Part shown: piece by piece, positions 11,669-62,549 of the stretch
How the letters are laid out: the number at the start of each line of letters is the position of its first letter
Numbering within the stretch: the stretch's first letter is position 1
Origin: Butyrivibrio sp.
GTDB lineage: Bacteria; Bacillota; Clostridia; Lachnospirales; Lachnospiraceae
Assembly (NCBI GenBank): GCA_017446685.1
Contig: JAFSQI010000127.1
Location: 1-64,000 of the forward strand
Direction: 5' to 3'
Length of the DNA: 64,000 bases
Notes under the pieces: model-generated
Told to the model about the DNA's origin: nothing
Database searches by the model: none
The model's input: the letters and a program-made list of their open reading frames with translations, nothing else
Translations under genes and position numbers: made by a program

Positions 11669-11711
11669 ATTATTGCCTTTCAATTAAATTATTACTGTAA
11701 AATATAATTAA

Positions 11712-12758: not shown

Positions 12759-12759
12759 A

Positions 12760-12978: not shown

Positions 12979-12985
12979 AATTATC

Positions 12986-15331
12986 TCACTTTCTTTTTTG
13001 AAGCATAAGACCATAATATGCCTGTCCCAATGAAATGCCGGAATCTCCGCATGGGACCATTTCATTTGTATAGACATCAAAATCTTCCGACCGAAGATTT
13101 TCAAATGCAAGCTTTAATAAAAGCCTGTTACCAAAAACTCCACCGGACAAACACACATTATTCTCTTTATACTTATCTCTTAATATAATACAGATATTTC
13201 TAATTGCATCTGCCAAAGCTATATGAAAAGAAAATGCAATTTCAGAAATGTCATATATGTTAGATTCATATAGTTTTCTAATTTTATCAAAAAAATCAGT
13301 CTGATCAAAATAGTAGTTATCAACTAATAATATACTAATATCAGGCGCTGTCAAATTGTTTTTATTATTGTCATAATATTTCCACGCTTCTTTTTCTAAA
13401 GCAATAGCACATTCCCCTTCAAATGAATTAAAATGCTTTATTTCAAGAAGTGAAGCTACAGCGTCAAACAACCGACCGACGCTGGAAGTATCATATGTAC
13501 CTATATTATTATCAAGTGCCGCTTTTACTAAAGGAGAAATTTTTTTGTCATTCTTATCCTTGGCATAAAAATAACATTCCTTTACCTGCTGTGCATTTTT
13601 GGGAGCATTATCTCCGCCGCAAAGTTTAATATATGAAAGCTTTGCTTCAAGCGAAAAATCAATTTCATTGCAGTAAAGGATTTCTCCGCCCCATATTTTT
13701 TGATCTGTACCATAGCCTGTTCCATCAAAAGCAATTCCTATACAAGAATAAAGCGATTTTTCAGCCATAACAGATAAAATATGAGCATGATGGTGCTGAA
13801 CCTGATATAATGGAATACTCTTAAACTCAGAAAGCTCTTTGGCCATCCTGGTTGAAAAATATAAAGGATGCATATCACAAATAATAATATCTTCGTTGAA
13901 ATCAAATATTTCTGATATTTTTTTACGTAAATCCTCGCTATTCTTTTTTATATCAAGACCTTTCAAATCACCCAAAAAAGGAGATGTAATAATTCTTTCC
14001 TTCCTGGCAATAGAAAAAGTATTTTTAAGATCACCGCCAAAAGCTAATATATTTTTATCTAAATCCAAAAAATCATTTCGCTTTATCATTAAAGGCAGAG
14101 GAAAATAGCCTCTTGATCTTCTGTTAAATGAAATCAATTCACTATTTTCAGATAATTCTGTCACGAATGCCACAGAATCATCTTGAGGTATATTAATTTT
14201 TCTCTTATGAAAAAGACAATATTTTATTGAATTTTTAAATCTCTCATCAAACTTTTCTTCAGAAATTATTATCGGTTCATCGGAAATATTCGCACTCGTA
14301 ACAATTAGTGGTCCAACTTCATCACACAAAATCCTATGGATACCACAGGAAGGCAAAAAAGCACCTATATATCTACTGTCTTTGCATACTTCATACGAAA
14401 AATCATATCTTTTTCTTAAAAGAACAATCGGTCTGGCAGAACTTTGTAATAATGTCGCCTCTCTTTCGCTGACAAAACAATATTTTCTTATGTCGAAAAT
14501 AGTTGAAAACATTACCGCAAATGGTTTGTTTTCTCTTCCTTTACAATGCCTCAATAAAAGAGCTGCATTATCATCAGGTCTTCCGATAAGTTGATAACCA
14601 GACATGCCCTTAAGCCCAATTATCTCATCTTTTTTAAGTGCAGTTATTGCAGATAAAACAGCATCCTGCCCATCAAGAATTTTATAATTTCCATCAGAAT
14701 CATAAAACTTCAAATAATATTGAGGTCCACAGTCAAAGCATGAAATAGTTTGCGCATGTCTACGCCTGCCATCAAGATAATCTTTACCACATGAACTACA
14801 CATTTTAAATGATCGCATAACAGTGTTGTCTCTGTCATAGGGCAATTTATCTAAAATACTAATTCGTGGTCCGCAACCGGCACAGCTAATTAAAGGATAA
14901 CCATATCTTCTGTCTTTTTTATCAAGCATTTCATTAAGACAGTCATCACAAATTCCAATATCAGGTAAAAAAACCGGAAGTTGATCCTTTAATGTGACTT
15001 CGGAACTATTTAAAATCCTAAATTTTCCAGTGTGAATTATGCTATCATCTTCATTTTTTTCATCAATGATCAAATTACCAGCTTCATCTACAGAGACATC
15101 ATTAAAGGGAATCTTTTCGACATCCAAAATAAAAGCACCTGAAGGATGCTCATTTCGTATCATATGGGTAAAACTATTTACCCGTGATTCATCTCCGGAA
15201 ATGAGAATATCAACAGCTGCCCCAATATTCTTAACATAGCCACTTAAACCATATTCAGTTGCTTTTTTTAATACAAAGGGGCGATATCCAACACCTTGTA
15301 CCGCCCCTTTAACTCTAATCTTTATAATCAT
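12986..15331 (-). CDS. hypF: Carbamoyltransferase HypF
   Basis: 781 residues, full length. HypF makes the carbamoyl group from carbamoyl phosphate and ATP and transfers it to HypE. Domains in order: acylphosphatase-like (1-90, KGAVQGVGYRPFV), two zinc fingers (Cys128/131 with 150/153, Cys178/181 with 198/201), a YrdC-like carbamoyl-adenylate domain (about 205-395), and a Kae1-like transferase domain with HHHAH and GIAFDGTGYG motifs. It begins 14 nt after echF and is followed directly by hypC, so the maturation genes are cotranscribed with the hydrogenase they serve. Confidence 0.97.
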   Translation of the reverse strand: MIIKIRVKGAVQGVGYRPFVLKKATEYGLSGYVKNIGAAVDILISGDESRVNSFTHMIRNEHPSGAFILDVEKIPFNDVSVDEAGNLIIDEKNEDDSIIHTGKFRILNSSEVTLKDQLPVFLPDIGICDDCLNEMLDKKDRRYGYPLISCAGCGPRISILDKLPYDRDNTVMRSFKMCSSCGKDYLDGRRRHAQTISCFDCGPQYYLKFYDSDGNYKILDGQDAVLSAITALKKDEIIGLKGMSGYQLIGRPDDNAALLLRHCKGRENKPFAVMFSTIFDIRKYCFVSEREATLLQSSARPIVLLRKRYDFSYEVCKDSRYIGAFLPSCGIHRILCDEVGPLIVTSANISDEPIIISEEKFDERFKNSIKYCLFHKRKINIPQDDSVAFVTELSENSELISFNRRSRGYFPLPLMIKRNDFLDLDKNILAFGGDLKNTFSIARKERIITSPFLGDLKGLDIKKNSEDLRKKISEIFDFNEDIIICDMHPLYFSTRMAKELSEFKSIPLYQVQHHHAHILSVMAEKSLYSCIGIAFDGTGYGTDQKIWGGEILYCNEIDFSLEAKLSYIKLCGGDNAPKNAQQVKECYFYAKDKNDKKISPLVKAALDNNIGTYDTSSVGRLFDAVASLLEIKHFNSFEGECAIALEKEAWKYYDNNKNNLTAPDISILLVDNYYFDQTDFFDKIRKLYESNIYDISEIAFSFHIALADAIRNICIILRDKYKENNVCLSGGVFGNRLLLKLAFENLRSEDFDVYTNEMVPCGDSGISLGQAYYGLMLQKRK

Positions 15332-15344
15332 ATATTATGCTTTA

Positions 15345-15833
15345 TTACTGCTTATCATTAGCTGCATTCTGTTGAGGTGCAACATTTTGCTTAGGAGCAG
15401 CTTCCTGCTTAGCTTGAGCCGCCTGTGCAGCTTTTGCAGCAGCCGCAGCAGCTGCACGTTCTTTAGCAGCTTTCATAAGAGCTTCCTGTGCAGCAATAGC
15501 TTTTTCAGACTGTTTAAAGGTCTTTGTTACCTTTTCTTCTCCGGGTTCCTGGAAGCGAAGTCCCATAGAAAGAGACTTCTTAGGGCAATTATCAACACAG
15601 CATCTACACTGAATGCAACTCATAGGTCTGATAGACCATGTTTTTTCTGCCTTATCTACTGTTATAGCATGCGTTGGGCATTTTATAGAACATAAACCAC
15701 AAAGCACGCATAAATCCATATCATTTTCTACATGTCCTCTTGTACCGGCAGGATATTCCTTCTCAACCTTTCTGGTCTTAGGTTTTGATACAAGATTATG
15801 AAGAATTGTATTTTTAAAACTTACAAGTGCCAT
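15345..15833 (-). CDS. echF: Ech hydrogenase ferredoxin-like subunit EchF
   Basis: 162 residues. Two complete [4Fe-4S] motifs, Cys42/45/48/52 and Cys73/76/79/83, place it as the polyferredoxin subunit that passes electrons from reduced ferredoxin toward the catalytic dimer on the cytoplasmic face of the membrane. From about residue 120 the protein runs into an Ala/Gln/Lys-rich tail with a long alanine block (about 124-162) that has no place in the iron-sulfur fold. Related subunits usually stop near residue 120-130. A similar tail is found on EchC. It is 23 nt downstream of echE. Confidence 0.9.
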   Translation of the reverse strand: MALVSFKNTILHNLVSKPKTRKVEKEYPAGTRGHVENDMDLCVLCGLCSIKCPTHAITVDKAEKTWSIRPMSCIQCRCCVDNCPKKSLSMGLRFQEPGEEKVTKTFKQSEKAIAAQEALMKAAKERAAAAAAAKAAQAAQAKQEAAPKQNVAPQQNAANDKQ

Positions 15834-15856
15834 TATTAATCTCCTATCCTACCTTT

Positions 15857-16936
15857 TTATCTCTCTGTACAACTAATACAAGGATCAATTGTAAGTACAA
15901 GAATCGGTACATCAGCAAGGTCACATCCCTTAAGTGTCTCAACAAGACCTGCAAGGTTAGCAAAAGTGGGAGTTCTAACTCTCATTCTGTCGATAAACTT
16001 AGTTCCGTTAGCCTTAACATAGTAAAGCGCTTCTCCACGAGGCTGCTCAATACGCATCATGTACTCGCCGTTTGGCATTCCCTTGACAGGAACATCAATA
16101 TCGCCTGAAGGTATCTTATCAATACACTGCCTGATAATATCAAATGCCTGGAAAATCTCCTTGATTCGGCACTCAGTACGGGCATATGAATCACCATCAT
16201 TACTAACAATAGGCTCAAAATCAATATCACCATATGCACAGTATCCAGTACTTCTGATATCTCTGGCAATACCACTTGCTCTCAGGAAAGGACCTGCACA
16301 TCCAAGTGCATCTGCCTGTTCTGCAGTAAGTATACCAACTCCACGAAGTCTTGTCTGAACGGCCATATCCTCAAGGAATGGCTTGGAAATGACCTTAAGA
16401 TCTTCTTCCATACGATTAATTCTCTGATAGAAATCCTTTAACATTTCATCAGGAACATCACGTCTGATACCACCAATCTTCATAACAGAGAAAATAACTC
16501 GTCCACCTGTAGACTGTTCAAACATATCAAGAGCTTCTTCTCTAAGTCTCCAACAATCCATATAAAGAGACTCAAATCCGAAAGCATCTGCTAAAAGTCC
16601 AAGCCAAAGCAGATGTGAATGAACTCTTGAAAGTTCTGACCAGATTGTTCTCAAATATCTCGCACGATCCGGAACCTCTATATCCATAATATGTTCAACA
16701 CATTCCGAATAACCAAGTCCGTGTCCGAGTGAGCAGATACCGCAAATACGCTCTGCAACATATACCATTTCATTAAAATCTTTTTTATCAACCAGCTTTT
16801 CAAGACCTCTGTGGATGAAACCAATAGAAGGGATAGCTTCTACAACTTTCTCATCCTCCATAACAAGATCCAGATGAATTGGCTCCGGAAGAACCGGATG
16901 CTGGGGTCCAAATGGAATTACACTTCTTGTAGACAT
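15857..16936 (-). CDS. echE: Ech [NiFe] hydrogenase large catalytic subunit EchE
   Basis: 359 residues. Both nickel-binding motifs are intact, RICGICSLGH (Cys65, Cys68, His72) and DPCISCTER (Cys353, Cys356), so this is a group 4 hydrogenase rather than a complex I NuoD homologue, which lacks them. It reduces protons with ferredoxin electrons, coupled to ion translocation by EchA/EchB. The protein ends three residues after Cys356, so the C-terminal peptide that hydrogenase endopeptidases remove in other groups is absent, and no such protease is needed or encoded nearby. It lies 15 nt downstream of echD. Confidence 0.95.
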   Translation of the reverse strand: MSTRSVIPFGPQHPVLPEPIHLDLVMEDEKVVEAIPSIGFIHRGLEKLVDKKDFNEMVYVAERICGICSLGHGLGYSECVEHIMDIEVPDRARYLRTIWSELSRVHSHLLWLGLLADAFGFESLYMDCWRLREEALDMFEQSTGGRVIFSVMKIGGIRRDVPDEMLKDFYQRINRMEEDLKVISKPFLEDMAVQTRLRGVGILTAEQADALGCAGPFLRASGIARDIRSTGYCAYGDIDFEPIVSNDGDSYARTECRIKEIFQAFDIIRQCIDKIPSGDIDVPVKGMPNGEYMMRIEQPRGEALYYVKANGTKFIDRMRVRTPTFANLAGLVETLKGCDLADVPILVLTIDPCISCTER

Positions 16937-16951
16937 TACAGTTCCTCCAAT

Positions 16952-17284
16952 TTATTTGAATGGTGTCTCTATCGCTGTACGATAAAGCTTGCCTTCAAAA
17001 TCTATATTGATCATCTTGACCTTAACACCGAATAAATCATGCATCTCATTCTCATAAATAAATGCACACGGATAAATACTTGTAATACTTGAAATTTCCT
17101 GTTCCTCCGGAAGAGTAATCTTGAGCTGCTTAACCTCTAAATCTTTTCCAAAAGAATAAATTAGCTCATATCCGTCAGGAATACGTGTAGCACACTGCTG
17201 CATAAGATGATATCCATTAAACTTAAGCTTTTGTGACTCATCAATAACGTTATGAGGATCTATATTTATAAACTCTGTATTCAT
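16952..17284 (-). CDS. echD: Ech hydrogenase subunit EchD (NuoC-like)
   Basis: 110 residues, short like other EchD proteins and homologous to the 30-kDa complex I subunit NuoC. The conserved segment ITSIYPCAFIYENEMHDLFGVK is present near the C terminus (complex I has ...ERExxDLfGI). It packs against the large subunit and carries no cofactor. It overlaps the last base of the echC stop codon (position 17284 is shared), indicating translational coupling. Confidence 0.88.
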   Translation of the reverse strand: MNTEFINIDPHNVIDESQKLKFNGYHLMQQCATRIPDGYELIYSFGKDLEVKQLKITLPEEQEISSITSIYPCAFIYENEMHDLFGVKVKMINIDFEGKLYRTAIETPFK

Positions 17285-17970
17285 CAGCCATTTTCTCCTT
17301 TCACGTTATTATCCGCAGCCTTAGGCTGTGCAGCAGGAGCAGCACTTGCCATAGCTGCCTTAGGAGCAGCTGCATTAACCGGCTTAGGTGCAGGCTTTGC
17401 AGTAGCCTTGATTTTTTCTTCAGCCTGCTGTCTAAGAGCTTCTTCTGTAAGAACTGCATCATACTGTGTACTAGGATCATAGTCGTCTGCAGTCATATGA
17501 ATAGCAATTTTGCTATAATCAACAGTACAATATCCGGCCTTCATTGATTCCTTAAGTTTCTTTCTCTTTTCTTCAAGAATACCAACAGCCTTTACTACAC
17601 CTTCTATAAGAGCTTCAGGTCTTACAGCACATCCGGGTACATAAACATCTACAGGAACAACCTTATCAGCACCACCCAAAATATTGTAGCACTCTTTAAA
17701 AATACCACCGTCACAGGCACAGATTCCGCATGCAACTACTACCTTTGGGTCAGGCATCATATTGTAAAGCTGTCTGACTACAGGTGCTGTCTGAGCATTA
17801 ATACCTCCTGTCAGAAGAAGTACATCAGCGTGCTTAGGATTACCGGTATTGATAATGCCAAAACGCTCAACATCATAAAGAGGAGTCATTGTGGCAAGTA
17901 CTTCTATATCACAGCCATTACAGCTGGAGCCATCATAATGTAACACCCAAGGTGATTTAGAAATATTCAT
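17284..17970 (-). CDS. echC: Ech hydrogenase small subunit EchC (NuoB-like)
   Basis: 228 residues. It holds the proximal [4Fe-4S] cluster next to the nickel site; the four ligands are visible as Cys17, Cys20, Cys81 and Cys114 (SSCNGC, ACGIC, VPGC). The core ends near residue 150, the normal size for EchC. It is followed by about 75 extra residues: a linker, then a Pro/Ala/Lys-rich low-complexity tail (about 188-228). The extension is unusual for this small subunit and mirrors the tail on EchF. It starts 23 nt after the echB stop codon. Confidence 0.93.
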   Translation of the reverse strand: MNISKSPWVLHYDGSSCNGCDIEVLATMTPLYDVERFGIINTGNPKHADVLLLTGGINAQTAPVVRQLYNMMPDPKVVVACGICACDGGIFKECYNILGGADKVVPVDVYVPGCAVRPEALIEGVVKAVGILEEKRKKLKESMKAGYCTVDYSKIAIHMTADDYDPSTQYDAVLTEEALRQQAEEKIKATAKPAPKPVNAAAPKAAMASAAPAAQPKAADNNVKGENG

Positions 17971-17993
17971 TATCTTCCATTCCCTTCTTAAAC

Positions 17994-18863
17994 TTATTTT
18001 AAAACATTTAAAATTAACAGATTAGTTCCTGCAAATACAAGGATAACGCTCCATGTAACAATAAGCATAGTCTTGTACTTAACACGTGGGAACAGATTGT
18101 CAATAAGCGTGCACAGGAAAAATACTACAGCGCATGAAATAATAGCCCAAATACGGCTGATTGGATTAGCAGTAATAAAGAACATACCAACTATACCAAG
18201 CATAAGAACAACGTCGTACCATTCAGCTATCTCAACTAATGCAAGGTTACTACCGGAAAGGTCAGTTGTAAGTCCCTTAACCATTTCCTGGTGCATATGA
18301 TGAGAAGTACTAAGATCAAATGGTGACTTACGAAGCTTGATGATCAAAATAAATACAAATCCGATAAAGAATCCTGGAATCTGTACAATAGCAGGAACCT
18401 GCGTTCTAATCAGATCATCCACCATAAAGCTTCCGTTTGCATAGTAAAAACCAATAGCAACAAGAAGTGTCATAGGCTCATAACACATCATCTGCAGAAG
18501 TTCACGCTGTGCACCCATGATACTATAAGGTCCGTTAGTTGAAAAAGCTGCAAGTACAAGCATAACTTCAGACATTGATAAAGCAAAGAATACAAGAAGC
18601 ATATCTCCGCCTGCAAAGAAAAGTGTTCCGGTAAAGATAGTAAAAATAAGATATACTGTCACAAATAATACCTGAATACTATTAACAACGGTTGTCTGCT
18701 TGTGCAAAAGCTTATTTACATCATAAAAAGGCTGAAATACAGGAGGCCCCTGTCTTCCCTGCATCCTTGCAGAAACAACCCTGTCTAATCCTGAAAGCAT
18801 TCCACCGATTAACGGTGCCAAAAGTATATAAATTAAAGCTTTAACTATCATCCATGCAGTCAT
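17994..18863 (-). CDS. echB: Ech hydrogenase membrane subunit EchB (NuoH-like)
   Basis: 289 residues with about eight hydrophobic segments. It corresponds to NuoH, the membrane subunit that connects the catalytic arm to the ion-pumping arm; SGLDRVVSARMQGRQGPP is the family signature near the N terminus. The chosen ATG at 18863 overlaps the echA stop (TAATG) and has GGAGGT 9 nt upstream. The frame is open further upstream into echA, but that extension lacks homology. Confidence 0.93.
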   Translation of the reverse strand: MTAWMIVKALIYILLAPLIGGMLSGLDRVVSARMQGRQGPPVFQPFYDVNKLLHKQTTVVNSIQVLFVTVYLIFTIFTGTLFFAGGDMLLVFFALSMSEVMLVLAAFSTNGPYSIMGAQRELLQMMCYEPMTLLVAIGFYYANGSFMVDDLIRTQVPAIVQIPGFFIGFVFILIIKLRKSPFDLSTSHHMHQEMVKGLTTDLSGSNLALVEIAEWYDVVLMLGIVGMFFITANPISRIWAIISCAVVFFLCTLIDNLFPRVKYKTMLIVTWSVILVFAGTNLLILNVLK

Positions 18864-20788
18864 TAGATAGCACCTCCAACTACAACAATAAGCATTACCA
18901 GAACGAGAACTGTTGAAATCCAGATACATGGCCATAAGAGTTTCTTCTCTCCGAAAAAGTCCTCCATGTACCAGTTAGACATATAAAGCGCTCTCTCTTT
19001 ACCGAAGGAATCAATGTAATGTCTGTCGTCTCCGGCATTTACACCAGCAACATATGACATTGTCATCTTGGAATTCTTACCGATTGACAGGAATCTTGAA
19101 CCGATAGGAATAGCAAATATCATTGCAACCATTATCATCATGATAATTACATCACTTCCGCCAATTACGTCAGGAATATTAGTATGGAAAGCCTCATCAA
19201 GAATAGGCTGAATCATATGTGCTGACATCCATGGGAATGCGAAGCACATAACAATGATCATCGTAGTCAAAGGAAGCATTGATACCATCTCACTTCTTGG
19301 AGTGATGTCTTCAAGTTCAAATGACTGGTGAATTACAGTACAAATCTTTCCAAGCCATTTTGCCCAATAAAACAGTGTACTTCCTGAACCAAATACAAGG
19401 AAAAGAACAAGCCATACGGAACCTGAATCAACGAATGATTTAAGTGCAGCCCACTTAGAAACAAGCATTCCGAATGGAGCCATAAACATACCACAAATTC
19501 CGATAATCATAATAAATGCAAGTCTTGGAAGTTTAATAATTAGACCATGCATATCCTCAATATCACGACTGTGCATACAGTTTTCAATGTCACCAACAGT
19601 CTGGAACAAAAGCGACTTAGACACAGCATGGAAAAGAACAAGCATAACAGCAGCCCAAACACCCTCTGTTGTACCTGTGCCTGCACAGGCAGTTATAAGT
19701 CCAAGGTTTGAGATTGTTGAATAAGCAAGAACCTTCTTTCCATCGCTTACTGTAATAGCAAGAAGTGAAGCAACAAAGAAAGTAAATCCACCAATAACTG
19801 TAATCATTACACCTGTAAGTGTGCCTTCCATAACAGGTGATAATCTTATGAGCATGTACACACCAATCTTAACCATTGTTGCTGAATGAAGAAGTGCACT
19901 GGAAGGAGTAGGCGCAACCATCGCTCCAAGAAGCCATCTTGAAAATGGGAACTGTGCACTCTTTGTCAGAGCAGCAAATGCAAACAAGGTAACAGGAACA
20001 ATAACTGTAATAGTTCCATTCACATCAGTAACCTGACTGAGATTTGAAATACCAAGTGCAATATTGCAATACATAAGTCCTGCAGCAAAGCCACAGCCAC
20101 CTAAAAGGTTCATCCACAGAGCTCTAAAGGAATTATCAACTGCTTCCTGTGTTCTTGTATAACCAATCATAAGGAATGAACATACACTTGTTATTTCCCA
20201 GAAGAAATAAATCCAACCAAGATTATCAGAAGAAATAAGCCCAAACATTGCTCCAAGAAATACAAACATAAGAGCAAGGAAATAGTTTGAACGATCCTGC
20301 ACATCAGTATGATGATGATGATAATCTTTCATATAGCCGGATGCATAAATACAAATAAGTATACCTACAATACCAACTATCAAATACATTACAGCTGCAA
20401 AAGTATCAATACGAAAATGCGTATTTCCTTCTACAACTCTTCCTGAAAGATCCATCCATAAAACAGGAATAGTTCCTACAAGAGATAAAAGAATTGCATA
20501 GATTTTTTTGTATTTGATACTGAGGAAGCAAACCAGACACATCAAAAAGATTTCTCCCGCAATAACAAACTTATCGGGTATATGTGTTTCTGTTAAATAC
20601 ATATACTGCGAAGTATCACCGGACATAAGTACATTTACGGCAACATAAACAGCAGCGATCATAATTGTAAATCCACCTAAAATGATCACAATACTTCTCA
20701 GAGGAGTTGCTTCCTTCTGAATGAATATCAATGCCGCAAGTACGAAAGGAAATAGAATAAGAAAATTTACTACATTTGGAATAGCCAA
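18863..20788 (-). CDS. echA: Ech hydrogenase membrane subunit EchA (NuoL-like)
   Basis: 641 residues, very hydrophobic with about 16 membrane spans, matching the antiporter-like NuoL/MrpA-type subunit that moves H+ or Na+. The conserved region SAQFPFSRWLLGAMVAPTPSSALLHSATMVKIGVY contains the Lys and His residues of the ion channel. The start codon is TTG at 20788, with AAAGGGG 9 nt upstream; an ATG at 20793 is out of frame. It is the first hydrogenase gene, 85 nt downstream of the CsoR-type regulator. Confidence 0.93.
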   Translation of the reverse strand: MAIPNVVNFLILFPFVLAALIFIQKEATPLRSIVIILGGFTIMIAAVYVAVNVLMSGDTSQYMYLTETHIPDKFVIAGEIFLMCLVCFLSIKYKKIYAILLSLVGTIPVLWMDLSGRVVEGNTHFRIDTFAAVMYLIVGIVGILICIYASGYMKDYHHHHTDVQDRSNYFLALMFVFLGAMFGLISSDNLGWIYFFWEITSVCSFLMIGYTRTQEAVDNSFRALWMNLLGGCGFAAGLMYCNIALGISNLSQVTDVNGTITVIVPVTLFAFAALTKSAQFPFSRWLLGAMVAPTPSSALLHSATMVKIGVYMLIRLSPVMEGTLTGVMITVIGGFTFFVASLLAITVSDGKKVLAYSTISNLGLITACAGTGTTEGVWAAVMLVLFHAVSKSLLFQTVGDIENCMHSRDIEDMHGLIIKLPRLAFIMIIGICGMFMAPFGMLVSKWAALKSFVDSGSVWLVLFLVFGSGSTLFYWAKWLGKICTVIHQSFELEDITPRSEMVSMLPLTTMIIVMCFAFPWMSAHMIQPILDEAFHTNIPDVIGGSDVIIMMIMVAMIFAIPIGSRFLSIGKNSKMTMSYVAGVNAGDDRHYIDSFGKERALYMSNWYMEDFFGEKKLLWPCIWISTVLVLVMLIVVVGGAI

Positions 20789-32805: not shown

Positions 32806-33579
32806 TTATTTTGCATTTGTCAAAATTCCTAAATACTTCCCTAGTTTTTCTCTCATTTTCTGCAAAGCTCTTGTATGAAGCTGTGAAACTCTTGATTCTG
32901 AAACTTCAAGGACTTCACTGATTTCTTTTAATGTAAGCTCTTCATAATAGTAAAACAGAATAACTTTTTTCTCTTTATCCGTAAGAAGTTCTAAAGAATC
33001 TACAAGCATTTTCTTTAATTCTTCTTTTTCAACAGCTTCCTCAGGTTTAATGAAACCAGAATGAATATTGTTTGAATCTTCAGGTATGTCTGACCCCTGA
33101 TCCATAAATTCATTTAATGATACCACGCCTGTGACTTTCATCTGATTCTGCCAATTTAGATACTCATCCTCAGAAATCTCCATTTTAGCAGCGATTTCTG
33201 CATCAGTAGCAACATGGCCTTTATCTCTTTCAATTTCCCGAATTGCAGTATCAATTTTTTTCTGTCTCTGACGGATAGTTCTGGGAATCCAGTCCATTTT
33301 TCTGATCTGGTCCAAAATTGCGCCTCTGATACGCAAACTGGCATATGTTTCAAACTTAACATCCTTCAGAAGATCAAATTTGTCTATTGCATCTATCAAA
33401 CCAAAAATGCCATATCCTACAAGATCATCATATTCGACATTAAAGCCCAAATACATACTAAGTCTTCCCGCAACAAGCTTAACCAGTGGAGCGTATTCAA
33501 GAATCAGTTTTTCTCTCAAATCGGCGTCCTTTGTCCTATTATATTCTTCCCATAATTTATTCTTTGCCGCTTCATCCAT
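32806..33579 (-). CDS. sigD: Motility RNA polymerase sigma factor SigD/FliA
   Basis: 257 residues. Regions 2, 3 and 4 are present: YDDLVGYGIFGLIDAIDKFD and KFETYASLRIRGAILDQIRKMDWIPR of region 2, then region 3, then LTLKEISEVLEVSESRVSQLHTRAL of the region 4 helix-turn-helix. It directs late flagellar gene transcription from promoters of the type TAAA-N15-GCCGATAT; two such sites are seen in this window at 58749 and 61428. No flgM is visible here. It follows the small membrane protein gene by 25 nt. Confidence 0.96.
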   Translation of the reverse strand: MDEAAKNKLWEEYNRTKDADLREKLILEYAPLVKLVAGRLSMYLGFNVEYDDLVGYGIFGLIDAIDKFDLLKDVKFETYASLRIRGAILDQIRKMDWIPRTIRQRQKKIDTAIREIERDKGHVATDAEIAAKMEISEDEYLNWQNQMKVTGVVSLNEFMDQGSDIPEDSNNIHSGFIKPEEAVEKEELKKMLVDSLELLTDKEKKVILFYYYEELTLKEISEVLEVSESRVSQLHTRALQKMREKLGKYLGILTNAK

Positions 33580-52821: not shown

Positions 52822-55812
52822 TTATCTCTTAAGGTTTGTAAGTTCCTCAAGAAGTGTATCAGATACTGTGATAATACGGCTGTTAGCCTGGAATCCACGC
52901 TGCGTAGTGATCATTTCAGTAAACTGAGTGGAAAGATCTACGTTGGACATTTCAAGTACTCCGGTATTCATGTAACCACCATCTGTCGTAATATCCTGAA
53001 TAGTTGCTTCGCCAGAGTTAAGTGTCTGTGAGTAAAGGTTATCACCCTCTTTTGAAAGGCCTGATGCATTAGCAAACTCAGCTGATGCAATCTGTCCAAG
53101 GAGCTTTGTCTGTCCGTTTGAATATGTTGCGTTTACCTGACCGTCAGTTGCTATTGTAATACCGTTCATCTCACCAACCATACGACCTGTGTTAAGAGAC
53201 TTTTTATCACCCTTTACAGCTTTGATAGTTGAAGATCCGCTTGTGTTATAGTTTGTTACAGTAGAGAAATCAAGTGTCATTTGTCCTGCCTTAGCAGCAT
53301 CATCAGCCAGTACAGGCTGGAAACCAAATGACTCAAGTCCCTCTATTTTCTGATTAAATGTAAGATTTACAAGACCGTTTTCATTTCCGTTTGCACTCTT
53401 AAGAGCACCACTTGCAGGGTCAAATTTAAGCTGAATAGTCTGTGTTCCTGTTGTAAGATTCAAACTTCCGTCAGAGTTAAAAGCATAAGTTCCGTCAGTT
53501 CCGTAAGCATCTGCATCCTCATCTGAAATATTGTAAACCTTATAAAGAAGATTCTTAAAAGTACCTGTCGCAGTCTGAAGAAGATCTGAAATATTTCCCT
53601 GAAGCGGAACTTCTTCATATGCCGATGTATCATTGGTTGTAACATATTTAAGCTGTCCGTTTGCCTGAAGCTGAGTAGCATAATCTGTATTAAGGTTAGG
53701 AGTCTGTGTGGCATTGTGATAAATAGTGATTGCACCTGCTGTACTGAATTTTACGAGCAAATTGCTGTTACTTGGAATATCAATATCAAGTTGGAAAACG
53801 TTCTGAAGAAATTCCTGGCTAAGATCTCCAACTGTTCCGTAATCACCTGCAAGTACATATGCAGAACCTGTTGTAGAGTCTTTAAACACAGAATCAGGTG
53901 TATCAACATTGTATGTACTCTCATCTGCAAGATATTCTTTGTAGAAATTTCTGCCACTATATAAAACTCTTGTTGTATCTCTGGTAATTGCCGGTGCACT
54001 CTGATAAAACATTATTACAGATGTACCTGTAAGATCTGTAACTTTAAGATGAGTGAAGCTATTACTGCTTATATATGCGTCTAAAGCAGAAACTGTATTA
54101 TCAGAAATAACATTTGTTGCACTAAGTAAAGCAGCAAGTTCTGTCTTTTGCTCAGTGTTAAGTGAATTATATGTATATACAACATCTTCCAAAAGCTCAG
54201 AAGTTGATGAAGCGGCAATGTTTATTCTTTGAGCAGTTCCTGCTGCCTCAAGAAGTTCATCTGTTGAAGCCGTTGAAGTTGCCGGATAAATCTTTAACTC
54301 TTTTTTGTACTCATCAGTATTGCTCTCTGTATAATCATAGTACATGGTCATACCACTCATAGCACTATCAAGATCTGCCAATGTAGCATATTCGCCTGTA
54401 CCGTCCGATATGAAGCAGTTATTTTCATACTTGGCAAAGCTGGTTGCTGTACCTGAGCCATATTCAAGTCCCGGAAGCTGATAAACAGCAAATACATCAG
54501 ATCCACTGGAATTTGACTTAAAAACATACTTATATGGTGAATTTGATCCCAGATAGTTATACGTTGTCGCATCGTCCGTAAAATTAGTAAATACATTATT
54601 TAATGTTGCCTGTGTACTTGTTGCTATACCAGACATTGAACCTGCCTTACCGGGAACAGCATATCCAATCATGGAACCATCTGTTGCAATGTAATAATCA
54701 CTTGAGTTAGTTGCTGTAAATGAATATGAATGTCCGTCTGCAGATGTAATCTTTTTGTTGTAGTCGGTAGACGGATAGGTGATTGTCATGATACCGTCTT
54801 CAGAAATACTGTAGGTTGAAGTCTTGGAATAACCATACTGTCCACTGTTTACCATAGCATCGGAGATTCCATATGCATCTTCAAGAATACCGCTAAGTGC
54901 TGTCTTACTTGCATTCATCAGACTATAAAGAGTTCCTTCCATCGGAACATTTTCATAAACAGTTGCACCTGCAAGAAGCTTTATATTTGCATAAGATGAT
55001 GAAACTGTAACATCATATGCATCATCTACTGCAATTTCAGAAGTCTCAGTCGTTCCAAAGCTTATTCCATCAAGAAGCTCTTTTCCGATAGTATTACCGT
55101 TTGAATCAATGATATCTGTAAGCTGAATAGAGAAAAGATCTTCTGTTCCTGTATCTTTAAGTACAAATTTTCCTGTGTACAGATAACCTTTATTATCATA
55201 AAACTCAAGAGTTATTGTCTTTCCGTCATCAGATGTAACATTAGTATCGTTATCATCAATATTTCCGCTAAACAGACCTGCTGTTGTAGATGCCGGAGAA
55301 TATGTTGTATTATCAACATTCATAAGCTGAAGATTTGTTAGACCACCATTTTTATTAACAGTAATCTCACCTGTTTCAGGGTCTTCCTGAGCAGCCCAGC
55401 CCATAACAAAATATCCGTTTGCCTGCATTGCAAGATTACCTGCGCCGTCAACATAAAATGAACCGTCTCTTGTAAAAAGATTCTGAATTCCGTTATTTAC
55501 AACAAAGAATGCATCACCGGTAATCATGATATCAAACGGGTTATTTGTAGTCTGTGTAGCACCCTGTGATTCAATTGCAGTTGCAATAGCACCGGATTTT
55601 GTACCAAGACCTATCTGACGTGCATTAATACCACCTTTTGTCTCAGTTGCTCCTGAAGCAGCCTGGGTTGTCTGATACATGGTATCTGTAAAAGTAATTG
55701 ACTGGGATTTAAAAGAAGTTGTATTAACGTTGGCAATATTGTTACCGATAACGTCCATTTTGGTCTGATGTGTCTTAAGTCCTGCAACACCAGAAAACAA
55801 TGATCTCATCAT
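52822..55812 (-). CDS. flgE: Flagellar hook protein FlgE, greatly enlarged
   Basis: 996 residues; the usual length is about 260-550. Conserved ends are clear: N-terminal SLFSGVAGLKTHQTKMDVIGNNIANVNTTSF and C-terminal LEMSNVDLSTQFTEMITTQRGFQANSRIITVSDTLLEELTNLK. Residues from about 170 to 870 are filled with Ser/Thr/Asn/Tyr-rich sequence without Cys, including two similar segments starting NVPMEGTLYSLM and EVPLQGNISDLL, which suggest an internal duplication of surface domains. The ATG at 55812 has GGAGG 10 nt upstream; the next codon is also ATG. Confidence 0.93.
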   Translation of the reverse strand: MMRSLFSGVAGLKTHQTKMDVIGNNIANVNTTSFKSQSITFTDTMYQTTQAASGATETKGGINARQIGLGTKSGAIATAIESQGATQTTNNPFDIMITGDAFFVVNNGIQNLFTRDGSFYVDGAGNLAMQANGYFVMGWAAQEDPETGEITVNKNGGLTNLQLMNVDNTTYSPASTTAGLFSGNIDDNDTNVTSDDGKTITLEFYDNKGYLYTGKFVLKDTGTEDLFSIQLTDIIDSNGNTIGKELLDGISFGTTETSEIAVDDAYDVTVSSSYANIKLLAGATVYENVPMEGTLYSLMNASKTALSGILEDAYGISDAMVNSGQYGYSKTSTYSISEDGIMTITYPSTDYNKKITSADGHSYSFTATNSSDYYIATDGSMIGYAVPGKAGSMSGIATSTQATLNNVFTNFTDDATTYNYLGSNSPYKYVFKSNSSGSDVFAVYQLPGLEYGSGTATSFAKYENNCFISDGTGEYATLADLDSAMSGMTMYYDYTESNTDEYKKELKIYPATSTASTDELLEAAGTAQRINIAASSTSELLEDVVYTYNSLNTEQKTELAALLSATNVISDNTVSALDAYISSNSFTHLKVTDLTGTSVIMFYQSAPAITRDTTRVLYSGRNFYKEYLADESTYNVDTPDSVFKDSTTGSAYVLAGDYGTVGDLSQEFLQNVFQLDIDIPSNSNLLVKFSTAGAITIYHNATQTPNLNTDYATQLQANGQLKYVTTNDTSAYEEVPLQGNISDLLQTATGTFKNLLYKVYNISDEDADAYGTDGTYAFNSDGSLNLTTGTQTIQLKFDPASGALKSANGNENGLVNLTFNQKIEGLESFGFQPVLADDAAKAGQMTLDFSTVTNYNTSGSSTIKAVKGDKKSLNTGRMVGEMNGITIATDGQVNATYSNGQTKLLGQIASAEFANASGLSKEGDNLYSQTLNSGEATIQDITTDGGYMNTGVLEMSNVDLSTQFTEMITTQRGFQANSRIITVSDTLLEELTNLKR

Positions 55813-55929
55813 AAGGCAGTGTCCTCCATCATGAAACAAGTGTAACTTTAATACAGCAGCTTAAATTTCTTTTTTCATAAGCCACTATTTCTCCATATAC
55901 ACTTTAATTTTGGACGGGAGTTTGCAGAT

Positions 55930-57232: not shown

Positions 57233-58690
57233 TTACGCACTAAAGTCCACAGTATTTCCATTTAGTTCCATCATTTTTGCACTTAGCTGTTCTTCCTCAG
57301 ACATCTCTTCCATGATTTCTTCATCGATTTCAGAAAGGTTAATTCTTCTTAAGGATTTTCTGCCTTTTCCGGCTTCCTCACGAGCTTCATTTTGTCCGCC
57401 TTCCTGCTGAAGATTTTGTTCAAAAGCATGAGATGCAACAGTAACTTCGATGGATGTTACCTTTATCCCCTGCTCATCAAACTTTTGCTGAAGAGTCATC
57501 ATCTGAGTCTCAACTGCCTCTTTTACAATCTCATTCTGGGCAGTAAACTTTGCAATTATTCCACCATCTTTAGAGCTGGATAAAAGAATATTTACATTTC
57601 CAAGACTTGCAGGGTGTAATTGAAGCTCTATCTGTGTTTCTTCTTCACCGGCTGTAATAGTGATTTTCTCTGTAATCTGCCTTATAATATTTTCCATTTG
57701 CGCCCTGTCGGTATACGATACTGTTTCTGATGGAGCATTTACAGCTGCATCTGCTATATTCTGCGCAATTTGGTTAAAAAGATTAGCCTGGGGATTATTT
57801 TGTCCAAATGAGCCTTCTTTATTATCACCGGTAAAAGATTTGGGCTGTGGTTTTTCAACCGGCATTTCTTCTACATCAGGAATTTCTTCTACTGTTTCAT
57901 TGACTTTAGATTGTTCATTAGACAGGATTTGTTTGTTCTGAATTGGAATCTCATCTACTTTAACAAATACTTCCGGTTCTTTTTCCGTTATTTTTTCAAT
58001 ATTTTCGGTAAAAGAATCTTTAAATTCTGAAATAGCTGTTTCAAGTTCGTCTTCAGATAAGTTAAGCTCATTCATAAGCTCACTTCTCATATCATCCGCA
58101 TCCTTCAAGAGGTCCTGCAATAAATCATATGAATCTGAATCAGTAACAAGAAGTGCCATACCGTCCTGTCCTATAACAGCTGTTACAACATCCTGTAAAT
58201 TCTGTGGTGTAAGAACATCAATAAGTCCCATTCCCAAGTTCTGCATTGCCAACATGATTTCGTCTTCTGAAACATCAAGTTTTTCAGAAATTTCGGAAAT
58301 CAGTTCTTTCGCTGCCTCTTCAAAAGCCTGTGATGTTTCTTCATCAATTTCAGTTTCAACTGCTGTAACACTACTGTCTGAACCCTTTTCAAAAGAATCA
58401 GTTTTTAGCTCTTTATCTGTTGGTTCATTTTTTTCAACAGGCTCATTCTTTGTTCTTACTACATCTTTTTTTACATCACTGGTCTTTGTTGCTTCCTTGG
58501 TGGTGTTATCAGTCGTTTTTCCTTCTTTTTGTGTCGCTCCGGAGAACTGATTAAGAATATTATCAAAACCGTTAGAAGTCTTTGACGCTGCTGTTTTTAA
58601 TGAAGAGCCCATACCGTCAGTTCTTTTTACATTGGGATTAGTAACAAACGCAAACTGTTGACTGACAGAATTAGAAGTTTTATTTATCAA
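57233..58690 (-). CDS. fliK: Flagellar hook-length control protein FliK
   Basis: 485 residues. The N-terminal two thirds are low-complexity and Glu/Thr/Ser-rich, as expected of the extended ruler part. The C-terminal Flg_hook domain (about 340-440) contains ELQLHPASLGNVNILLSSSKDGGIIAKFTAQNEIVKEAVETQM, the core that contacts FlhB. It determines hook length and triggers the export switch. A sigma-D-type promoter lies about 60 nt upstream. Confidence 0.92.
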   Translation of the reverse strand: MINKTSNSVSQQFAFVTNPNVKRTDGMGSSLKTAASKTSNGFDNILNQFSGATQKEGKTTDNTTKEATKTSDVKKDVVRTKNEPVEKNEPTDKELKTDSFEKGSDSSVTAVETEIDEETSQAFEEAAKELISEISEKLDVSEDEIMLAMQNLGMGLIDVLTPQNLQDVVTAVIGQDGMALLVTDSDSYDLLQDLLKDADDMRSELMNELNLSEDELETAISEFKDSFTENIEKITEKEPEVFVKVDEIPIQNKQILSNEQSKVNETVEEIPDVEEMPVEKPQPKSFTGDNKEGSFGQNNPQANLFNQIAQNIADAAVNAPSETVSYTDRAQMENIIRQITEKITITAGEEETQIELQLHPASLGNVNILLSSSKDGGIIAKFTAQNEIVKEAVETQMMTLQQKFDEQGIKVTSIEVTVASHAFEQNLQQEGGQNEAREEAGKGRKSLRRINLSEIDEEIMEEMSEEEQLSAKMMELNGNTVDFSA

Positions 58691-58748: not shown

Positions 58749-58775
58749 ATATCGACATAAGTTTTAAAATAATTA
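58749..58775 (-). promoter_or_regulatory. Sigma-D promoter upstream of fliK
   Basis: Minus strand TAAT (58772-58775), 15-nt spacer, GTCGATAT (58749-58756), close to the B. subtilis sigma-D consensus TAAA-N15-GCCGATAT. It lies just after the flagellinolysin stop codon, so fliK and the following genes can be transcribed separately. Confidence 0.65.
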
Positions 58776-58789
58776 GGAATTATTTAATA

Positions 58790-60688
58790 TTATTTAAGTA
58801 GTGCCATGACACCTTCATTTGTCATATTAGCCTGCGCAAGCATAGCCTGTCCTGCCTGTGCAAGAACATTATCATTAGAAAACTTCACTATTTCAGCAGC
58901 CATGTCAGTATCACGTATAAGTGATTCTGATGCTGTAGTATTTTCCACTACATTATCCTGATTTTTTACGGTATGCTCTAATCTATTTTGAAGTGCGCCG
59001 TAATAACTTCTGATCTTGCTGATATTTGTTGCAGCTATCTTTACAACATCAAGAGTATTTCTTGATGAAATAGCTGTTTTAGTATCAAAACCTGCGCTAT
59101 TGGTAATCTGTTGCACGGATACTGAGTATCTAAGGAGAGGTATCCTGTCTTCATTTGTATTATCCGCTCCAACCTGTAAATAGAGAAGTGCGGCAGCATT
59201 TGTTCCTCCGCCTGATGGAATATTATCAAAACTATATCCACTTCCAAAAGCATTAGCATACTTAGTATTATCTGTAAGCACTTGATAATTTGTGGTTGTC
59301 GAGCCAGCAACATTTCCAAACAAATCCTCTTCAGAATCGCTCAAATTACCAAATATAGATCCCGCTCCGTTTGATCCTCCTGCCTGCAAAATCATTTTAA
59401 CTGCCGCAAGTGTAGTAGCATCTCCTGTAGTAAAGCCATTCTCAAAATCTGCAAGAGAAGTATACTGTGTTATATTATCTGAAATTGCATCACTAAACGT
59501 TTTACCATTTGCAACATCTGTCATTATCTTGTCAAGTCCTGATCTGATGCTTGCAGAACTAACTGTGCCTGCTCCTGATGCAAGATGACCAAGAACCATA
59601 GTTGCCATATACCCTGCTCCATAAGGCATTGATTTTAATTTACTCATATAACCTGTTATCTGAGCATCTGAAGAGTTTTGATCAATACTGTGTGATACCC
59701 ATCCATTGTCACCACTTGATGTCTGAGCTGCACCCTCAATAAACCAATCCGGAAATCCTCCAAGCATACCTGAGGTAAGAGTATCATCCATAATAATATG
59801 CGTCATTTCATGAGCTATCGTAGCTGCTAAATCCGCCTTCTGAGCAGCACTCATAGAAGAATAAGCATTGACAGGATAATCTGATGTATCAACCTTCATG
59901 GTATAACTCATAGTTGTTGATGTTGAATTTGATTGTATCTGCATAGCAGCATATGCCAACGTGCCGCTCTTACCATCAATATTTCCCAGCTCCAAACCAA
60001 TTTTTATATCATCCGATGAAGCAGCACTAAAAAGGCTTGGTAAATTACTCGCCAGATTACTTACAGCACTTGCAGCAGCCTGTTGTACAAACTTTGCAAA
60101 ATCTGTATCCTTTGTTGAGGTATTTTCCGTTCCTACAGCCTGTGATTCAGTTACTGAACCAACCTTTCCTTCTGAACCGATAAAAGGTGTCAGAATTTCA
60201 ATTGTATTCCCTCCGGGCACAGTAATTATAATTGAGCCATTATTTGATATAAAATTATTATTTGGATTTAAGCCACCATCAAATATAGGAATTTCATTGA
60301 ACCTTGTTGTAGAATGAATTTTATCTATTTCTTCTGATATTTTCTGTACTTCAGCATCAATATATTCTCTGTCAGAATCTGTAAGTGTGTCAGTAGCAGC
60401 CTTTACTGCCAGCTCCTTGACTCTTTCTAACATGTCATCGACTTCATTCAAAGAGCCATCCGCAATCTGACACCAGGAAATACCATCCTGAGCATTTCTT
60501 GTTCCTTGACTCAGGCCTTTTATCTGCCTTCTCATTTTTTCAGATATTGCCAGTCCCGCGGCATCATCTGCTGCTCTGTTAATTCTATAACCTGATGAAA
60601 GCTTCTCAGAAGATTTAGCTTTTTCACCTAAAGTAATATTTAATTGCCTATTGGCATTCATTCCAGATATATTATGCTGTATTACCAT
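58790..60688 (-). CDS. Flagellinolysin: flagellin with a central zinc metalloprotease domain
   Basis: 632 residues; ordinary flagellins are about 270-500. Residues 1-140 (D0/D1, [45 protein letters not shown]) and 535-632 (SESLIRDTDMAAEIVKFSNDNVLAQAGQAMLAQAN) are standard flagellin. The hypervariable middle (about 190-500) carries HEMTH (His293, Glu294, His297) and Glu318 in WFIEG, the Zn ligands and catalytic Glu of a gluzincin, about 21 residues apart as in flagellinolysins. The filament should thus display protease subunits outside the cell. GGGATG precedes the ATG. The gene lies in a short cassette with its own sigma-D-type promoter. The substrate cannot be predicted. Confidence 0.9.
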   Translation of the reverse strand: MVIQHNISGMNANRQLNITLGEKAKSSEKLSSGYRINRAADDAAGLAISEKMRRQIKGLSQGTRNAQDGISWCQIADGSLNEVDDMLERVKELAVKAATDTLTDSDREYIDAEVQKISEEIDKIHSTTRFNEIPIFDGGLNPNNNFISNNGSIIITVPGGNTIEILTPFIGSEGKVGSVTESQAVGTENTSTKDTDFAKFVQQAAASAVSNLASNLPSLFSAASSDDIKIGLELGNIDGKSGTLAYAAMQIQSNSTSTTMSYTMKVDTSDYPVNAYSSMSAAQKADLAATIAHEMTHIIMDDTLTSGMLGGFPDWFIEGAAQTSSGDNGWVSHSIDQNSSDAQITGYMSKLKSMPYGAGYMATMVLGHLASGAGTVSSASIRSGLDKIMTDVANGKTFSDAISDNITQYTSLADFENGFTTGDATTLAAVKMILQAGGSNGAGSIFGNLSDSEEDLFGNVAGSTTTNYQVLTDNTKYANAFGSGYSFDNIPSGGGTNAAALLYLQVGADNTNEDRIPLLRYSVSVQQITNSAGFDTKTAISSRNTLDVVKIAATNISKIRSYYGALQNRLEHTVKNQDNVVENTTASESLIRDTDMAAEIVKFSNDNVLAQAGQAMLAQANMTNEGVMALLK

Positions 60689-60712: not shown

Positions 60713-61111
60713 TTAATCCCAATTACCCATTTTCTGTATCTTCAAAGCATTTTTACACTTAGGGCAAAATAAAGCCTTCTTTCCACTAATAACTTCTTCA
60801 TTATCTTCTATTTTGGGAATCGTGCTGCATTTGCACCTTGAAATGACACTAACTACATTTTTATTTCCATCAGTAATAGAAAAAACAGCTACTGAAGTAA
60901 TCTTTTTACATGTGTTACAGCTTGTAAGATTCTTTGTAACATTCCACTCTTTTCCGGGATTATCTGACACTAATTTTTTTATCTCTTTTTGGGATACATC
61001 ATCAAACTGACTTAATACATCTTCAAGCTTATTAAAGCTAATACCAGCCCCTATATATACGTCCTCCTGATATCCGCATTTTGAACAATTAACATTTAAT
61101 AAAATCCCCAT
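60713..61111 (-). CDS. Multi-cysteine (zinc-ribbon-like) protein upstream of flagellinolysin
   Basis: 132 residues. Four Cys pairs are seen: Cys9/12 (CSKC), 65/68 (CNTC), 93/95 (CKC) and 116/119 (CPKC), consistent with two zinc ribbons. No signal peptide or membrane segment, so it is cytoplasmic. GGGG lies 5 nt before the ATG. It is between the flagellin remnant and flagellinolysin, only 24 nt before the latter, and is probably cotranscribed. I recognise no family; a regulator or chaperone of the metallo-flagellin is a guess from position. Confidence 0.65.
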   Translation of the reverse strand: MGILLNVNCSKCGYQEDVYIGAGISFNKLEDVLSQFDDVSQKEIKKLVSDNPGKEWNVTKNLTSCNTCKKITSVAVFSITDGNKNVVSVISRCKCSTIPKIEDNEEVISGKKALFCPKCKNALKIQKMGNWD

Positions 61112-61209: not shown

Positions 61210-61368
61210 TCAAAATTTTTCCGAGATAGCAAGACCAGCTGCATCATCTGCAGCACGATTGATTTTATAACCTGATGATAATTTTTCTGACGACTTAGCC
61301 TGACGCTTAACAACGATTCCCAGCTGTCTATTAGAATTATATGAAGATAGATTATGCTTAATAATCAT
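61210..61368 (-). pseudogene. Truncated flagellin N-terminal fragment (52 residues)
   Basis: [19 protein letters not shown], then [19 protein letters not shown] and [10 protein letters not shown], followed by TGA. It is nearly the same as residues 1-51 of the flagellinolysin, then stops exactly where D0 passes into D1. No further flagellin sequence is found in any frame after the stop. A hairpin ATCTCG/CGAGAT (61204-61227) sits at the break. The start at 61368 has GGGGA 8 nt upstream, and a sigma-D-type promoter is 60 nt away, so the fragment is probably transcribed and translated. It may be a decayed flagellin, or a functional short ORF or recombination donor. Confidence 0.8.
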
Positions 61369-61427
61369 ACATGAATTCCCCATTTTCTTTATGCATCCAT
61401 GCATGATTAAATAATCCTTTATAAAAT

Positions 61428-61454
61428 ATATCGGTATTATTTGTAATTATATTA
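61428..61454 (-). promoter_or_regulatory. Sigma-D promoter of the flagellin cassette
   Basis: Minus strand TAAT (61451-61454), 15-nt spacer, ACCGATAT (61428-61435), close to the sigma-D consensus. It lies after the terminator of the preceding gene and before the flagellin remnant. Confidence 0.75.
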
Positions 61455-61512: not shown

Positions 61513-61553
61513 GCAAAAAAAGTGAATGTACTGTCAAAAACAATACATTCACT
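61513..61553 (-). terminator. Terminator after the MotE-like gene
   Basis: AGTGAATGTA / TACATTCACT, a 10-bp stem with a 13-nt loop, followed on the minus strand by TTTTTT. It separates the early flagellar genes from the flagellin cassette. Confidence 0.92.
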
Positions 61554-61592: not shown

Positions 61593-62549
61593 CTATTTTC
61601 CTGTAACCTGAGTAGATTCTTTTTCAAGAGCAGATGGTTCCAATAATTGAGTTGCTTTAGCAGCATTGGATTTATCCATTGCAGCTAAAATACTTGAACG
61701 ATTATCTACTGACATTTGAGCAAGAATCCTCGCAACTAACTGAAGCTGATTTTCTTCAACCATCTGATCAAAAAGGCCTGCCGCATCTTTGGCTTTCATA
61801 GATGAATAAGTCTTGGCAAATGCCTCAATAGCATCATCTTCAAGTTCACCTGCAACAATTTCTTTATAAAGTTCTGCCGCTGTTTCAGGGTCTACCATCG
61901 CATAATAACTGGCGTATGCCGAAGCATCCGGAGCATAGTCTCCATAAACAACACTTGCATAAAATGATGCTCTTTCCTCATAAAAATCTTTTTGCTGCTG
62001 TTCAAAAGGCTCCAGTCTCGTCACTTCAGTTTGAAGCTTCTCTATTGTAGCTTCATAACTGCTGTTTTGCTCCATCTCTGATTGAAGAGCCTGCTCAAGT
62101 CTTTTTATATAGGCATTAGCTTCTTCAAGTGATTCCATTCCTGAAGCAGAAGAATCTGTACTGCTGGCATCAGTAGTATATTCATCCTCCGCTGTCTGTT
62201 TTACAGCGCTGTCAGGCAGAATCATGTTCAAATATGGAACATCTTTGATAATTGGAGCAAGGACATCTGAGCCAAATCCGCCTACATCAAGTTTGATAAG
62301 TAAAGCCATGATAGCAAGCCATATCAAAACAATAAGAAAGGTTATTACAATCGTAGCAAAACCGCCTGCATTATCTCCATTAATTTCGGCAGTTCTATCC
62401 GCAAATTCCTGCTCTTTTTCTTTTTGCTCCTTGCGCTGTTGCTTTAATTGTTTCTGATATTCCTTCTTATCTGCCTTTAACTTGGCTTTCGCAGCCTTTG
62501 GATCATCGATATTATTTGGAAGAGTACCGTTTGTGCCTGTATTAGCCAT
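61593..62549 (-). CDS. MotE/YlxF-like flagellar protein with MgtE N-terminal-like domain
   Basis: 318 residues. A basic N-terminal coiled coil, one membrane helix (about 65-88), a second coiled coil and a C-terminal helical domain (about 200-305, AETAAELYKEIVAGELEDDAIEAFAKTYSSMKAKDAAGLFDQMVE ... VARILAQMSVDNRSSILAAMD) of the MgtE-N superhelix type. Such proteins (YlxF in B. subtilis, MotE elsewhere) sit between fliJ and fliK and are linked with motor or export function. It is longer than usual in the N terminus. Confidence 0.8.
   Translation of the reverse strand: MANTGTNGTLPNNIDDPKAAKAKLKADKKEYQKQLKQQRKEQKEKEQEFADRTAEINGDNAGGFATIVITFLIVLIWLAIMALLIKLDVGGFGSDVLAPIIKDVPYLNMILPDSAVKQTAEDEYTTDASSTDSSASGMESLEEANAYIKRLEQALQSEMEQNSSYEATIEKLQTEVTRLEPFEQQQKDFYEERASFYASVVYGDYAPDASAYASYYAMVDPETAAELYKEIVAGELEDDAIEAFAKTYSSMKAKDAAGLFDQMVEENQLQLVARILAQMSVDNRSSILAAMDKSNAAKATQLLEPSALEKESTQVTGK

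Follow-up and report, generated by a model that had tools for sequence, protein, structure and literature searches.

Flagellins that carry a protease are a known kind of protein. In Eckhard 2017 (PMC5595980), FliA(H) of Clostridium haemolyticum is described as making up to 10% of the filament, and as having flagellin ends around an insert with a gluzincin-type HExxH motif, a distal Glu 25 residues beyond the second His (His237 to Glu262) and an Ala; HExxH with a distal Glu is also found in collagenase M9 and thermolysin-type gluzincins. A second paper (PMC7643111) reports the FliA(H) gene within a flagellar gene cluster, and describes HgrFlaMP of Hylemonella gracilis, which has the same architecture, the insert of which degraded casein as a recombinant protein, and the gene of which lies among non-flagellar genes. 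The flagellin described here, from a 64,000-nucleotide stretch of a Butyrivibrio genome (the window), shares this architecture and these residues, with 21 residues instead of 25 from the second His to the Glu. Compared with FliA(H) as those sources present it, it is sequence-divergent, linked to a small zinc-ribbon-type protein, ZnR, and sited between a MotE-like gene and fliK; unlike the gene for HgrFlaMP, its gene stands among flagellar genes. The newer point is the linkage to ZnR.

The 632-aa protein, encoded at 58790..60688 on the minus strand, was assigned as a flagellinolysin-type flagellin from its ORF, domain matches and aligned relatives. Pfam matched Flagellin_N at 60275..60682 (-) (E 5.7e-40, profile 1-136 of 139) and Flagellin_C at 58796..59053 (-) (E 9.3e-19, profile 1-86 of 86), and both flagellin ends are complete; of the 8 Flagellin_N matches in the genome, two fall inside the window. 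Between the ends lies a metallopeptidase-like region (residues 200-520, 59129..60091 (-)), supported by an NF033876 match and a profile comparison, in which HEMTH (residues 293-297, 59798..59812 (-)) would by homology provide two zinc ligands and the general base, and Glu318 (59735..59737 (-)), aligned with the canonical motif, the third zinc ligand. All 22 aligned flagellins, picked for having HExxH, share H293, E294, H297, E318 and A321, and equally D238, D270, W315, Y356 and Y360. The ligand set and 'basement' Ala of Eckhard 2017 (PMC5595980) agree with these invariant residues. The earlier note, a first reading of this DNA, had named the HEMTH motif, Glu294, Glu318 and the intact flagellin ends, all of which were borne out. 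The thousands of protease copies along the filament that it expected are a prediction, to be weighed against the 8 Flagellin_N matches of the genome and the share of up to 10% given for C. haemolyticum.

Homology to the described flagellinolysins was assessed with the NCBIfam flagellinolysin model, NF033876, which matched the middle of the protein, best over residues 203-563, with E 6.4e-41 and 141.1 bits, short of the curated cut-off of 205, an annotation threshold exceeded in 1 of 299 genomes of the same family; all 22 aligned HExxH flagellins matched it at E 0.001 or better. In a profile-profile comparison (98.6% probability, E 7e-16) of the insert with three flagellinolysins of other clostridial families, all of which exceed the NF033876 cut-off, HEMTH falls on HEITH and WFIEGAA on WFTEGVA, and this motif-on-motif alignment, together with the NF033876 match, makes the HExxH more than a chance occurrence. 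Because the score is under the cut-off, the protein is called flagellinolysin-type, a divergent branch and not the NCBI equivalog; by these comparisons it is homologous to the described flagellinolysins, and it is most likely an active protease flagellin. The earlier note's identification of a flagellinolysin is supported, with complete flagellin ends and conserved catalytic residues. Against its closest relative, the gene gave pN 0.23 and pS 0.79, with silent changes saturated, and amino-acid-changing differences are much rarer than silent ones. No Pfam peptidase exceeded its cut-off in the protein (M48 reached 14.4 of 20.3 bits), Peptidase_M9 was not matched in it at E 0.01 (a weak match, E 0.00032, was present in one of the 22 relatives), and a sequence-profile search of solved structures (PDB) with the protease profile returned two chance-level rows only.

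The protease-region query matched 24 of 79 genus genomes, and a close full-length flagellinolysin is present in eleven other genus genomes. In four matches of 847-920 aa, one of them in the window's genome, no flagellin N-terminus was found (in three of the four, within the fetched locus only). HExxH proteins of 710-918 aa match the protease profile and do not match the flagellin N-terminus (L056:10553-13306, on contig C126 of the window's genome; L057:8016-10148; L058:8332-10476; L314:7764-10391); it is possible that such proteins are a source or a sister of the inserted domain.

The gene lies, as the earlier note had placed it, between the MotE-like gene (61593..62549 (-), the end of the upstream unit, assigned by its position between fliJ and fliK with Pfam matches below cut-off only, and matched in 75 of 79 genus genomes) and fliK (57233..58690 (-), Flg_hook by Pfam), the next unit downstream. 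After MotE stands an intrinsic-terminator-like hairpin with a T run (61521..61553 (-); -22.5 kcal/mol, z -5.85, with 0 of 200 shuffles folding as well); terminator-like sites number 4 in the region, where shuffles average 1.9. A sigma28-type promoter-like box, found by pattern match, follows at 61429..61454 (-) (TAAT-N15-ACCGATA). The Butyrivibrio fibrisolvens sigma28-type consensus, as printed in PMC3720852, is TAAA / MCGATAa, and the box at 61454 (-), TAAT-N15-ACCGATAT, fits that pattern apart from two small mismatches, one in the -35 box and the other at the final -10 base. The window also encodes, at 32806-33579, a sigma factor that has regions 2, 3 and 4. Downstream of the box lie, in order, a decayed flagellin (61210..61404 (-); about the first 50 flagellin codons, then TGA; Flagellin_N 2.9e-9, profile 1-49), ZnR (60713..61111 (-); 132 aa, a probable partner gene) and, after 24 nt, the flagellinolysin as the last gene of the group. 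The 64-aa ORF at 61210-61404 was considered as a functional short protein, and this was rejected given a Flagellin_N match to positions 1-49 only and an intact flagellin in that place at 8 distinct loci, where it lies directly upstream of ZnR, on the same strand and 2-129 bp away.

A second box (TAAT-N15-GTCGATA, 58750..58775 (-)), assigned by pattern match and from relatives, precedes fliK. Boxes with the fixed 15-nt spacer number 5 in the window against 0.89 expected, with 0 of 100 shuffles reaching 5, and 3 of the 5 stand at other places; with a spacer of 14-16 nt there are 7 (shuffle mean 2.9, max 7), no more than chance can give, so the sigma28 pattern alone is weak. Comparison of genus loci is more telling: in 28 of 35 a looser box stands no more than 260 nt before fliK (shuffles mean 0.26, max 2), against 13 of 35 for the fixed 15-nt form, and the looser box was not found there at L145, L147, L148, L162, L163, L164 and L176; before other genes it was found in 0 of 39 (MotE), 0 of 32 (flgD), 0 of 37 (fliJ) and 0 of 26 (flgE). 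From this distribution fliK seems to begin its own transcription unit in this genus. The hairpin after MotE and the box of fliK itself argue for a boundary between transcription units, and the cassette of remnant, ZnR and flagellinolysin appears to sit between two units and not inside one operon; an unbroken operon through the flagellinolysin gene was judged unlikely on the same two signals. Two statements of the earlier note find no support in the form given: that the gene is inside the core assembly operon, since it occupies a gap between a terminator-like hairpin and a promoter-like box in which 10 of 40 relatives have other ORFs, and that it has its own promoter. A promoter directly before it was ruled out by the 24 nt that separate it from the 132-aa gene upstream; the box at 61454-61429, which precedes the flagellin remnant, would serve the whole group. 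The zinc-ribbon gene and the flagellin remnant are additions to that note's picture of the locus. Elsewhere in the window, an ORF of 1005 aa (52822-55839 (-)) is hook protein FlgE-like, which is very large for a FlgE, and 10658-20788 (-) encodes what we take, naming the genes from their ORF sequences, to be a membrane-bound NiFe hydrogenase with its maturation genes.

Of the 75 genus genomes in which MotE is matched, 40 were examined at the MotE-fliK gap. fliK comes directly after MotE in 24, other ORFs intervene in 10 (L152, L162, L163, L164, L168-L170, L172-L174), and in 6 fliK was not reached or the order not determined (L151, L160, L161, L165, L166, L181). Domain searches of 10 gap proteins from 7 loci gave a GH9 cellulase in L168 (2904-5210), with ORFs of similar size and place in L169, L170 and L172 (Pfam was run on L168 only); a GH16 enzyme with carbohydrate- and choline-binding repeats in L152 (3725-7189); a FIST protein and a chemotaxis receptor in L173; a chemotaxis receptor in L161; a P-type ATPase and a beta-lactamase-family protein in L165; and nothing over cut-off for L163 or for two ORFs of L162. 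The GH9 ORF of L168 begins about 20 nt downstream of MotE and so may share a transcript with flagellar genes.

For comparison of sites, 57 distinct protease-flagellin loci were collected with flanks of about 0.1 to 10 kb; two of them (L048, L225) lack HExxH in the frame read. The earlier note had proposed comparing the locus in related genomes, and this comparison found the window's site unique: fliK, MotE or flgD lies in the flank of 1 of 57 loci, the window's only, and the MotE-cassette-fliK arrangement occurs in no relative examined (40 gap loci, 57 protease-flagellin loci). Flagellar genes of other kinds flank six further loci (flgB-fliF-fliG in L051; fliD, fliS or fliW in L138, L142, L196, L212 and L260). 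The place is therefore unusual, as that note held, and its novelty is weakened by the flagellinolysin of C. haemolyticum, already in print within a flagellar cluster (PMC7643111).

glgP lies within 3 kb at 8 of the 57 distinct loci, and adjoins 6 of the 9 tree rows nearest to the window's protein, two of which (G365, G361) are also beside ileS; the nearest rows away from glgP are G336, G193 and G317. The window's flagellinolysin is sister on the tree to the copy of Butyrivibrio sp. YAB3001 (G365, L125/L194; support 100/99), with 65-66% identity. The YAB3001 homologue likewise has ZnR directly upstream (33% identical to the window's ZnR); unlike the window's copy, it lies between glgP and ileS and its upstream flagellin is intact. 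At the glgP-ileS site the window's genome has a single flagellin, of 711 aa and lacking HExxH. This, and the glgP-adjacent position in 6 of 9 near relatives, indicate that the cassette probably moved. A MotE match was found in 9 of the 11 flagellinolysin-bearing relatives; in eight of these it lies on a different contig and in G299 2.26 Mb from the flagellinolysin, while G371 and G369 have no match. The gene order is most simply read as a cassette that moved and whose first flagellin decayed, and we infer from that order both the direction and the mechanism of a probable relocation into the MotE-fliK gap.

ZnR has six invariant and two nearly invariant Cys across 18 aligned rows, ends in GNWD in the window, and showed no signal or membrane segment on inspection by eye. 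The window's copy matched no Pfam model over cut-off, the best reaching 19.1 of 25.2 bits, and no NCBIfam model at E 0.01. Its best PDB row was Aart (3.2e-9), a designed zinc-finger protein, a match that we take as similarity of cysteine pattern. Weaker ZnR-like proteins, most ending in WD, occur elsewhere with varied neighbours (L286, L287, L289, L301-L305, L191), which suggests that ZnR belongs, as a branch, to a broader family of small zinc-ribbon proteins. At L243 (9536-9883), a second ZnR-like gene about 3 kb from a flagellinolysin has GLLD at its end in place of GxWD. Two genomes of another clostridial family carry, immediately after a canonical flagellinolysin, a zinc-ribbon ORF of 105-106 aa; in the one compared by hhalign, it resembles ZnR over the first 29 residues only (89%). 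No zinc-ribbon gene was seen beside a third canonical locus (L311).

Linkage was examined with scans that used ZnR itself as the query. In the genus, a single-sequence query matched 11 of 79 genomes, and an 18-row profile (E 0.001) matched 18 of 79, full-length in the same 11 (124-146 bits) and partially, at 28 bits or less, in the remaining 7; the full-length ZnR adjoins a flagellinolysin in 11 of 11 cases. In the family (299 genomes, E 0.001), ZnR matched in 25 genomes, with 9 scoring above 80 bits, of which 8 adjoin a flagellinolysin and the ninth (G241) lies about 100 bp from a contig end; among the other 16, no flagellin was seen beside the weaker match at six loci (L284-L289). In the order (392 genomes, 1e-5), 5 of 8 matches adjoin one (G000, the window's genome, G306, G364, G193, G585), and the other three score 48.7 (G601), 35 (G687) and 27.6 bits (G576). 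The pooled set comprises 40 distinct ZnR genes that share the strand of a protease flagellin and stand no more than 145 bp from it; 19 are upstream of the flagellin and 21 downstream, 39 have a terminal GxWD and all 40 a terminal WD, and four further matches are not adjacent to a protease flagellin. Many of the 40 came from a flagellin query, a bias from which only the genus, family and order ZnR scans are free, and as related loci they are not independent events. A few of the flagellins beside them have an interruption or run into a contig end (L048, L050, L210, L219, L225). At L048 (G283) and L050 (G031) the protease flagellin ORF is broken (split ORFs; a TAG) and the adjacent ZnR ORF is whole. 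Seen from the flagellins, ZnR lies within 250 bp of 38 of the 57 protease flagellins and is lacking beside 19, and among 100 other flagellins 90 have no ZnR, 9 stand beside a ZnR that is likewise next to a protease flagellin, and 1 has no such explanation. We infer that ZnR is a dedicated partner of the protease flagellin. In the open-access collection searched, no paper that mentions flagellinolysin was found to describe such a link under the term 'zinc ribbon' in its main text.

Our preferred reading takes its domains, conserved residues, gene order, promoter- and terminator-like signals and linkage from the sequence, and we put its probability as a whole at about 0.68. A cassette of flagellin, ZnR and flagellinolysin, which in most near relatives sits beside glgP, would in this lineage have moved to a site between the terminator of MotE and the promoter of fliK, where its first flagellin then decayed to a leader of about 50 codons. 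Late transcription from the sigma28-type promoter would make the flagellinolysin together with ZnR; the flagellinolysin would leave as a flagellin through the flagellar export gate, co-polymerise with ordinary flagellins and display a zinc protease on the filament surface. ZnR would act on it in the cytoplasm before export, either by keeping the protease from folding or from being active, or by handling metal. The transcription, export, proteolytic activity and metal binding, like the action of ZnR and the direction of movement, are predictions of this reading. A bolder extension, which we regard as doubtful, makes ZnR the founding member of a class of proteins dedicated to guarding enzymatic flagellins before export; it would bind the protease domain in the cytoplasm, perhaps with the GxWD tail in or near the active site, silence it until it enters the export channel, and be left behind.

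Zinc ribbons are often nucleic-acid binders, and ZnR could be a regulator of mRNA, promoter or secretion order, and not a chaperone or inhibitor of the protease; its weak matches include ribosomal and polymerase ribbons. Such matches are typical of any short zinc ribbon, and a regulator would have no need to remain tied to one gene through both gene orders, which leaves this a possibility to be taken seriously but on the unlikely side. That ZnR is a hitch-hiker, inherited with the cassette and not a functional partner, would accord with the related zinc-ribbon proteins elsewhere in these genomes and with the 19 of 57 protease flagellins that lack it. It is argued against by the change of gene order and genomic context around ZnR over the 40 adjacent, co-directional loci, nearly all with the GxWD end, by the complete adjacency in the genus scan, and by the zinc-ribbon ORF after two canonical flagellinolysins (L311 having none), and we consider it improbable.

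The flagellin insert might also be a mere surface decoration or a peptide-binding pseudo-protease, as the NF033876 score under the cut-off would allow, protease activity being a prediction. The invariance of the two His, the two Glu and A321, in rows chosen for HExxH, and the mostly silent changes speak for an enzyme, and a non-catalytic insert appears quite improbable. An assembly error could account for an arrangement seen in no relative, in a 3.24-Mb draft genome (137 contigs, 88.75% complete); yet the site is inside a 177-kb contig, MotE and fliK are both complete ORFs, a terminator-like hairpin and a fliK box, both seen also in relatives, flank the cassette, and the glgP-ileS site of the same genome has no cassette, so that an artefact is very unlikely.

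A flagellin-borne protease must cross the narrow export channel unfolded, and we know of no answer, for flagellinolysins, to how an export-bound protease is made without harm to the cell's own cytoplasm. Tied to the protease flagellin at 40 distinct loci, ZnR would be a direct candidate for the solution to this problem. The cassette, which appears to have moved, may illustrate a way for an enzyme of the filament to join the flagellar regulon, by entry at a MotE-fliK gap in which some relatives have other hydrolases of secreted type or chemotaxis genes.
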